From NCBI RefSeq assembly GCF_037076425.1, contig NZ_AP028127.1, forward strand, positions 1 through 27,500: DNA of 27,500 nt, in the 5' to 3' direction. This document shows, piece after piece, positions 19,638 to 21,377 of the stretch. Source of the stretch: Turicibacter faecis (lineage in GTDB: Bacteria > Bacillota_I > Bacilli_A > MOL361 > Turicibacteraceae). Each line of letters begins with the position of its first letter. Position 1 is the first letter of the stretch. The notes under the pieces are model-generated. The model was not told the DNA's origin, ran no database searches, and saw only the letters and a program-made list of their open reading frames with translations. Position numbers and translations under genes: made by a program.

Positions 19638-19666
19638 TTGACTTATGAATGAATTCTTGATATTAT
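19638..19666 (+). promoter_or_regulatory. Promoter of candidate small RNA
   Basis: TTGACT (19638-19643), a 17-bp spacer and TATTAT (19661-19666), near consensus. No plausible ORF follows before the terminator at 19732-19759. Apart from the rubrerythrin promoter, I saw no coding sequence in 19420-19637. Confidence 0.65.
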
Positions 19667-19672
19667 TTTTAT

Positions 19673-19759
19673 GAGATCAGTATGGAGTGGTGTGATTCGG
19701 CAGCCCACTATATAAAAAATAAAGAGTCGAGAAAAAAAGAGCCTCACGGCTCTTTTTTT
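19673..19759 (+). ncRNA. Candidate small RNA of about 87 nt
   Basis: Defined by a strong promoter and an intrinsic terminator with no ORF between. It contains a possible hairpin (AGTGG with CCACT, about 19686-19710), an A-rich linker and a terminator hairpin. This is prediction from signals only; function unknown. Confidence 0.45.
19732..19759. terminator. Bidirectional terminator
   Basis: AAAAAAAGAGCC (19732-19743), loop TCAC, GGCTCTTTTTTT (19748-19759). It ends the candidate plus-strand RNA and lies 22 bp downstream of the minus-strand 54-residue gene. Confidence 0.9.
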
Positions 19760-19781
19760 ATATTTTTATTAAATAGACTCT

Positions 19782-19946
19782 TTAGACGATATGTTGACAA
19801 ATAAACACGAAGAAAAGAATTAGCGCTATGCTCGCTAAAGAGACATTTAATTTTTTCATTTTTCGTGGTCCAACTTCCGGGGCAAACCAAAATAAGTTGT
19901 CCATGATGTTAAATAAGGTTTGAATTAGGTCATCGATAAATTCCAT
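19782..19946 (-). CDS. 54-residue membrane protein, function unknown
   Basis: A short frame starting MEFIDDLIQTLFNIM and ending FICQHIV. The N-terminal half is amphipathic (residues 1-30, including DNLFWFAPEVGPRK). One membrane helix is predicted at about 34-51 (LNVSLASIALILFFVF). It is supported by a Shine-Dalgarno GGGGAG six bases before the ATG, by a strong terminator 22 bp after the stop, and by a TATAAT on the minus strand at 19981-19986. I recognise no family. It could be a small membrane regulator or stress peptide, but this is open. Confidence 0.6.
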   Translation of the reverse strand: MEFIDDLIQTLFNIMDNLFWFAPEVGPRKMKKLNVSLASIALILFFVFICQHIV

Positions 19947-20053: not shown

Positions 20054-20081
20054 TTGACGGTATATTTCTCACGATTATGGG
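20054..20081 (+). promoter_or_regulatory. Possible promoter of structured RNA copy 1
   Basis: TTGACG (20054-20059), a 16-bp spacer and TATGGG (20076-20081), placing the start at the beginning of copy 1. The -10 is weak. No similarly good promoter was found before copies 2-4. Confidence 0.4.
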
Positions 20082-20084
20082 AAA

Positions 20085-20257
20085 AGTAGTGGTGTAGAGT
20101 TTTACGGAATGGTTATTGGACGGCCACGAAGTGCTCAGGTGACGGTCAGTCATCACTAAATATTAGAGTTGATGTTTAGGAGTGGTTGATTGTTAGGAAT
20201 TCTACGAATGAAGTGCTTTGTTGTAGGAAATAGTTCTTATGGCAGGGCACTTTTTTT
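20085..20257 (+). ncRNA. Tandem structured RNA element, copy 1
   Basis: First of four related elements. From 5' to 3' it holds GTAGAGTT able to pair with AATTCTAC near the 3' end, a short hairpin with loop GCCACGAAG, a hairpin CTAAATAT/ATGTTTAG extended by a bulged lower stem, and a terminator AAGTGCTTTG/CAGGGCACTT with seven T. The 5' AGC-GCT hairpin of the other copies is degenerate here. No ORF is conserved. Family unknown. Confidence 0.7.
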
Positions 20258-20300
20258 GTTAGAAAAAATTAAATCCTGCGTGTAGAGTGAATAAAAATAA

Positions 20301-20485
20301 AGTAGCGGGGAAAGCTAGTTTTGTAGAGTTTTACGGAATGGTTATTGGGCAGCCACGAAGTGCTCAGGTGATGGTTGGTAAGGGCTGAATATGAGAATTG
20401 ATGTTCAGTGGTTATTAGCTATTAGAAATTCTGCAATTCAAGTACCCTCTTGTAAGAAATAGTTCTTATGACAGGGTACTTTTTT
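20301..20485 (+). ncRNA. Tandem structured RNA element, copy 2 (divergent)
   Basis: The 5' half matches the other copies, while the 3' half differs at many bases yet keeps the helices. TTGTAGAGTT pairs with AATTCTGCAA; CTGAATAT pairs with ATGTTCAG, where other copies have CTAAATAT/ATGTTTAG; the terminator is AAGTACCCT/AGGGTACTT, where others have AAGTGC/GCACTT. Such paired changes are evidence for selection on RNA structure. Confidence 0.75.
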
Positions 20486-20487
20486 GA

Positions 20488-20516
20488 TTGACTAGAATAT
20501 TTTTGGGGAATATACT
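20488..20516 (+). promoter_or_regulatory. Promoter of the 72-residue membrane protein gene
   Basis: TTGACT (20488-20493), a 17-bp spacer and TATACT (20511-20516), directly after the terminator of RNA copy 2. Confidence 0.75.
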
Positions 20517-20544
20517 GGGTTAAATAAGTGGGAGGGGAATATTA

Positions 20545-20763
20545 GTGAAAGTGATTAACTTTATATTGATTTGTTTAACCATTTTGATTGGGATATCTAT
20601 CTGGATGGGATACGATAGGAATGTTCCGCTTTTGCTTTTAGTTGTAGCAGGATCGCAAATGGTTAATGGATGGGATCGCTATCGTAAAAATAGGGGAGAA
20701 GCGATTGTTTTATTTTTGCTTGCTGTGTTCTTGATGGGAGTTGCTATAAATTTAGTAGAATAA
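20545..20763 (+). CDS. 72-residue membrane protein, function unknown
   Basis: A small hydrophobic protein with two or three membrane segments (about 5-23, 27-43 and 53-71) and a positively charged loop DRYRKNRGE between the last two. It starts at GTG 20545 with GGAGGGG seven bases upstream. Its own near-consensus promoter lies just after RNA copy 2. No terminator directly follows; the next is that of RNA copy 3, so copy 3 may lie in its 3' UTR. I recognise no family. Its position between pairs of structured RNAs makes a functional link possible but unproven. Confidence 0.7.
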   Translation: MKVINFILICLTILIGISIWMGYDRNVPLLLLVVAGSQMVNGWDRYRKNRGEAIVLFLLAVFLMGVAINLVE

Positions 20764-20787
20764 TAAGTGAATGATGGATAAAAAAAG

Positions 20788-20972
20788 AGTAGCGGGGAAA
20801 GCTAGTTTTGTAGAGTTTTACGGAATGGTTATTGGGTAGCCACGAAGTGCTCAGGTAACGGTCAGTCATCACTAAATATTAGAGTTGATATTTAGGAGTG
20901 GTTGATTGTTAGGAATTCTACGAATGAAGTGCTTTGTTGTAGGAAATAGTTCTTATGGCAAGGCACTTTTTT
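20788..20972 (+). ncRNA. Tandem structured RNA element, copy 3
   Basis: It contains all helices: 5' TAGC/GCTA hairpin, long-range TTTGTAGAGTT/AATTCTACGAA, GGGTA/TGCTC around loop GCCACGAAG (here C to T, keeping a wobble pair), CTAAATAT/ATATTTAG and terminator AAGTGCTTTG/CAAGGCACTT with T run. Starts 24 bp after the membrane protein stop codon. Confidence 0.75.
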
Positions 20973-21022
20973 GTTAGAAAAAAATAAAAATTAAATCATG
21001 CGTGTAGAGTGAATAAAAAAAG

Positions 21023-21209
21023 AGTAGCGGGGAAAGCTAGTTTTGTAGAGTTTTACGGAATGGTTATTGGGCAGCCACGAAGTGCTCAGGTGATGGTCAG
21101 TCATCACTAAATATTAGAGTTGATGTTTAGGAGTGATTGATTGTTAGGAATTCTACGAATGAAGTGCTTTGTTGTAGGAAATAGTTCTTATGGCAAGGCA
21201 CTTTTTTTT
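21023..21209 (+). ncRNA. Tandem structured RNA element, copy 4
   Basis: Very close to copy 3. The helices are TAGC/GCTA, TTTGTAGAGTT/AATTCTACGAA, GGGCA/TGCTC, CTAAATAT/ATGTTTAG, and terminator AAGTGCTTTG/CAAGGCACTT with eight T. The linker before it (GCGTGTAGAGTGAATAAAAA) also precedes copy 2. No coding sequence was seen in 21210-21377 after it. Confidence 0.75.
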
Positions 21210-21377
21210 GTTTGGAAAAAATAAAATGATAAGGTTAGTTGAGTCGTTTAGAGAAAAATTCTAATTTCATAGAACGGATAGTGGTGATGGTTCAGTGATT
21301 AACTTCAGATTAATTTTGTAAAATGGGGTTGAAATTTTTTATTAATAGAGTAGGAAGAGAAATAAAGGGGATATGAT

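Follow-up and report, generated by a model that had tools for sequence, protein, structure and literature searches.

Tandem candidate small RNA genes with a pseudoknotted fold upstream of glyA in Turicibacter, probably acting in spore development

Upstream of glyA, the window (the whole 27,500-nucleotide stretch of Turicibacter faecis DNA that was analysed) carries a repeat family of 214 nt. Its four copies lie on the same strand at spacings of 229, 487 and 235 nt and share one common fold, at the place where they had originally been predicted. The RNA bodies are:

20093..20258, + strand, copy 1 RNA: closing helix (P0), predicted pseudoknot, long hairpin and terminator
20322..20487, + strand, copy 2 RNA, the most diverged of the four
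20809..20973, + strand, copy 3 RNA
21044..21211, + strand, copy 4 RNA

From the closing helix to the terminator each of the four copies measures exactly 163 nt, with no indels. Copies 1, 3 and 4 are 96-97% identical to one another and copy 2 is 79-82% identical to its siblings; the near identity of the three suggests recent duplication or gene conversion. Each copy was expected to end in its own Rho-independent terminator: these were detected for copies 1, 3 and 4, and for copy 2 the candidate is an inverted repeat at 20440-20481 followed by a T run. The region holds six terminator-like sites against 0.5 expected. A conserved small peptide within the RNA was considered and rejected, in agreement with the predicted lack of a conserved ORF, as the frame that is open in copies 1, 2 and 4 is stopped in copy 3 and in the homologues g2b and g4C. 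Two small hydrophobic proteins are encoded among the copies, one of 54 aa (19782-19946, - strand) that recurs by eye in genomes G001, G002 and G004, and one of 72 aa (20545-20763, + strand) that recurs within the array only in G002; neither has a family match above cut-off.

Homologues were detected by DNA similarity and with two covariance models, R1 (type B, the diverged form found in sister species) and R2 (type A, the form of the window). All five Turicibacter genomes examined encode the family, with 2-4 copies per genome and 16 in total, confined in each genome to one locus that is always upstream of glyA. The R1 search returned nothing credible in ~390 other genomes of the class or in 388 genomes of a phylum sample; R2 was searched within the genus, and copy 4 DNA in 40 relatives. 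Weak model matches in G063:C2 and G002:C40 were inspected and do not repeat the conserved parts of the fold, a BLAST match in G028 falls in the apparent coding sequence of a sigma-factor-like gene, and at 1.349 Mb in G004 the short matches fall in repetitive, coding-looking sequence. The latter region (G004:C1 ~1348500-1350600, - strand) is an apparent coding region with several nearly identical ~320 bp repeats. Phage, plasmid and viral collections gave no match, and a phage, plasmid or viral origin was rejected. In Rfam 15 the window copies have no match at gathering score, as anticipated from the sequence, and only chance-level matches up to E 10; the homologues have none above gathering score either. 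Literature searches found no paper on Turicibacter small RNAs.

The RNA bodies are 78-84% identical to those of G002 with no indels, while the spacers and upstream sequence are only ~56% identical. A non-functional or mobile, MITE-like repeat that folds by chance would also give tandem copies, three of them closely alike. We find this scarcely credible: the repeat keeps to one locus in every genome, its indel-free bodies stand amid less conserved spacers, and its helices carry the compensatory changes described below.

Copy 4 has a predicted folding energy of -68.2 kcal/mol, where shuffled sequences give -40.7 +/- 3.6 (z -7.6). Its parts are:

21044..21157, + strand, copy 4 closed domain, with P0 pairing 21044-21054 to 21147-21157
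21061..21089, + strand, copy 4 predicted H-type pseudoknot (S1 100% and S2 97% of cells paired, with type B counterparts)
21091..21146, + strand, copy 4 long hairpin of 24 pairs, four of them changed on both sides across copies
21161..21211, + strand, copy 4 intrinsic terminator, a 20-pair stem followed by a T run

Pairing holds in 97.9% of cells over five type A sequences, against 41-53% in slid controls, and seven pairs have changed on both sides. In the pseudoknot of copy 4, S1 pairs 21061-21065 with 21073-21077 (TGGTT/AGCCA), and S2, crossing S1, pairs 21067-21072 with 21084-21089 (TTGGGC/GCTCAG). The original prediction took the invariant loop GCCACGAAG as an open interaction site; its GCCA instead pairs with the upstream TGGT, and GCCACGAAG is one S1 strand plus a short third loop. 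In type A both S1 and S2 show one-sided changes only, and the type A sequences by themselves are consistent with the pseudoknot without proving it.

In type B the closing helix encloses a tandem pair of GTGG-(S2)-CCCAC-A-rich-(S2') modules, followed by a hairpin and the terminator. S1 and S2 cross, and the module is therefore a pseudoknot. The S2 strands vary widely yet stay paired (CAGATA/TATCTG, TAGATA/TATCTA, GTCGAT/ATCGAC and ATCGAC/GTCGAT), with 87% and 92% of cells paired and five and one two-sided changes in the two pseudoknots. The S1 helices are 94% paired and each carries one two-sided change, an A-U for G-C swap. Taking both crossing helices of type B together, 92% of cells are paired with 11 two-sided pairs, a result reached by 0 of 500 shuffles, and slid controls give 34-56%. 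In type B, crossing helices of the kind expected of an H-type pseudoknot are thus kept with compensatory changes; type A is consistent with the same structure, its TGGTT/AGCCA and TTGGGC/GCTCAG helices being the compact equivalent of the type B module. The proposal of an unrecognised structured RNA is supported, and homologues keep it with covariation. Within one genus, one pseudoknot plus a long hairpin has become two tandem pseudoknots, which makes the genus a natural experiment on the relative importance of the RNA's parts. When the genus was searched by pattern for the pseudoknot module, the array copies were recovered and, beyond them, GTGGATTGACAATGCCCACAATAATA, which occurs exactly at six scattered sites in G003:C1 and once as a variant in G001 and is possibly an insertion element.

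The TAGC/GCTA pairing at the 5' end had been read as a hairpin of the RNA. It is present only in copies 2-4, degenerate in copy 1 and broken in homologues, and is better explained as a conserved promoter-like block:

20060..20088, + strand, copy 1 predicted promoter: -35 GTATA (20060-20064), 17-nt spacer ending in GGG, -10 AAAAGTA (20082-20088)
20289..20317, + strand, copy 2 predicted promoter, GAATA-N17-AAAGCTA
20776..20804, + strand, copy 3 predicted promoter, GGATA-N17-AAAGCTA
21011..21039, + strand, copy 4 predicted promoter, GAATA-N17-AAAGCTA

In 15 of the 16 copies, which are related by descent so that their promoters are not independent, GNATA-N16-18-NANNNT[AG] ends 4-6 nt before P0; the sixteenth, g4C, has GAATA-N17-AATAATT. 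The motif matches 0.56% of random Turicibacter positions and 1.8% of shuffled upstream sequences. The layout, a GNATA-like -35 and, after 16-18 nt, a -10 that closely precedes the RNA, is that of forespore (sigma-F/sigma-G) promoters, whose consensus features we took from PMC3789822. In C. difficile the two kinds of promoter differ in the base next to the -10, a preceding G indicating sigma-F and a following A indicating sigma-G (PMC3789822); in the type A copies GGG precedes the -10.

Known sporulation genes of the genus look alike. The spoIIR promoter, present with its gene in all five genomes, reads G[TA]ATA-N17-CATA[AC]TGA. An open motif scan of the window's genome (G000) recovered spoIIQ (GAATA-N18-CATCATA; its identity rests on an NCBIfam SpoIIQ model match of E 6.6e-45 that is below the curated cut-off). 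The spoVT promoter, GTATA-N17-AAAACTA, is near the AAAGCTA of the copies. A pattern search for SASP and Gpr genes that covered one third of the genome, made to enlarge this promoter set, yielded none, only spoVT. A matrix built only from seven spoIIR, spoIIQ and spoVT promoters scores 14 of the 16 copies at p <= 0.023, leaving copy 3 (p 0.08) and g1B (p 0.24) as weak, and reaches p < 0.05 in one of 12 tandem 6S genes used as controls. The open scan, covering ~0.85 Mb, showed that the motif also precedes genes without a known sporulation role, and the motif alone is therefore not specific; the argument for the forespore is carried by its fixed position in diverged copies. One full match, GTATA-N17-TATTATA, precedes a candidate sporulation gene (L107:7559, + strand; G000:C1 ~2057559) whose 55-aa protein belongs to no known family.

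Could the RNAs instead be standalone sRNAs made by sigma-A in growing cells, the forespore-like motif being a chance product of AT-rich DNA? The type B -10 boxes TATTAT and TATCCT are also sigma-A-like and a TTGACG lies near copy 1. However, a sigma-70 scan found no promoter at the four copies, a sigma-A -35 being absent at the right distance, and GNATA, which is absent from the 6S controls, keeps its fixed spacing in the diverged copies; we hold this explanation to be improbable. Outside the array, a separate element has a predicted sigma-A-type promoter:

19638..19765, + strand, possible array relative: sigma-A-type promoter (19638-19666), pseudoknot candidate, terminator (19732-19759)

The element has one GTGG...CCCAC pseudoknot candidate, starting at 19687; it is nearly identical in G002 and G003, and its pseudoknot is lost in G004. 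The predicted transcript may be a relative of the array RNAs that is made in vegetative cells.

A riboswitch or attenuator leader of glyA or other downstream genes, one of the roles first suggested, would account for the conserved position upstream of glyA, and the order of parts, folded domain and then terminator, is like that of a riboswitch with its expression platform. This fits poorly with four tandem units that each have a terminator and a promoter-like block of their own. The neighbours 3' of each copy vary by genome and are often on the opposite strand, leaving no consistent co-directional downstream gene, and glyA itself starts ~230 nt past the last terminator behind its own promoter-like sequence, which is conserved in G002. 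We consider a leader very improbable.

The array is close to the replication origin. In G000 the GC skew switches at 2.406 Mb, the site of dnaA and rpmH, which places the array ~45 kb from oriC; the skew switch falls within ~22 kb of the array in G003, within ~101 kb in G004 and within ~92 kb in G001. In B. subtilis, origin-proximal DNA is the part of the chromosome first present in the forespore, and the position of the array fits forespore expression, which it supports weakly.

Turicibacter forms spores (PMC11320971). The promoter layout strongly suggests transcription of the array RNAs in the forespore, and they are probably spore-development RNAs, because each copy has a predicted start signal like those that operate in the developing spore. 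We judge it fairly likely that they are new, multi-copy standalone sRNAs of Turicibacter, ~165 nt long, made from forespore sigma-F/sigma-G promoters and folded so as to bind a protein or ligand. Each of the four paralogous genes would be transcribed from its own forespore-type promoter and ended by its own intrinsic terminator. In the window's species the P0-closed domain would hold one compact H-type pseudoknot and a long hairpin; in sister species it would hold two tandem pseudoknots and a short hairpin. The RNA would accumulate in the forespore, several gene copies supplying much of it within a brief stage of development, and its pseudoknot domain would bind a protein or ligand rather than act mainly by antisense pairing. 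We infer such binding because conserved positions are nearly all paired and the unpaired parts have no seed common to types A and B. The original prediction of a multi-copy small RNA thus survives in part: the RNA is unrecognised and structured, with covariation and terminators of its own, while the 5' hairpin within the RNA and the open loop fall away. The forespore-type promoter had not been part of that prediction.

The main rival reading shares the forespore and differs in the mode of action: an sRNA acting mainly antisense against sporulation or germination mRNAs, the action reported of Bvs196, with the pseudoknot and long hairpins mainly stabilising it. The forespore-type promoters serve this reading equally, and the divergence of copy 2 is as expected of sibling sRNAs with different targets. 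However, the pairing of nearly all conserved positions in the predicted fold leaves short unpaired parts, in which the two forms have no seed in common, and we rate antisense action as possible but unlikely. More tentatively than the protein- or ligand-binding small RNA itself, we propose that repeated pseudoknot modules may define a new class of non-coding RNA, kept in 2-4 origin-side copies, expressed only in the forespore and binding a protein or ligand instead of acting antisense. If true, such a class might sequester a forespore factor or be stored in the spore. Sporulation-specific small RNAs are little studied, and the publications consulted deal with Bacillus and C. difficile. In the array, a common gut commensal provides a case that can be tested, its transcript ends and sigma factor being predicted and its fold showing two-sided covariation.

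Among known RNAs, H-type pseudoknot riboswitches and the pistol ribozyme are built on a short stem, the loop of which reaches over an A-rich linker to pair with a strand further downstream, and the predicted fold of the array RNAs is of the same make. Such riboswitches are placed as leaders, unlike the array RNAs. A pistol ribozyme, brought to mind by CCACGATAAA of type B, was considered and gave no Rfam match, and pistol loop lengths differ from those of the array RNA. 6S RNA (RF00013) resembles the array RNAs in its similar length, its long closing helix and its several tandem copies in Turicibacter, but the array RNAs have pseudoknots and another promoter type. Identity with 6S RNA was rejected: RF00013 has no match to the copies, and true 6S genes lie elsewhere in all five genomes. 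These 6S genes are themselves in 2-4 tandem copies in each of the five (L044, L045, L046, L043, L047), so that tandem multiplication in Turicibacter extends to more than a single small RNA.

The closest counterparts in development are CsfG and Bvs196, two Bacillus small RNAs that sigma-F and sigma-G control in the forespore (PMC9147052). CsfG and Bvs196/S547 are likewise independent small RNAs with a sigma-F/sigma-G-type promoter and the same developmental niche (PMC9147052). They are confirmed experimentally, whereas the array RNAs are predicted from sequence. Bvs196, at 294 nt, is longer than the array RNAs at ~165 nt, and the array RNAs differ from both in their 2-4 tandem copies, their pseudoknot core, their rbr-glyA locus and their restriction to Turicibacter. 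By this analogy, a likeness of description rather than a claim of membership, the array RNAs appear to fill in Turicibacter the niche that CsfG and Bvs196 occupy in Bacillus.
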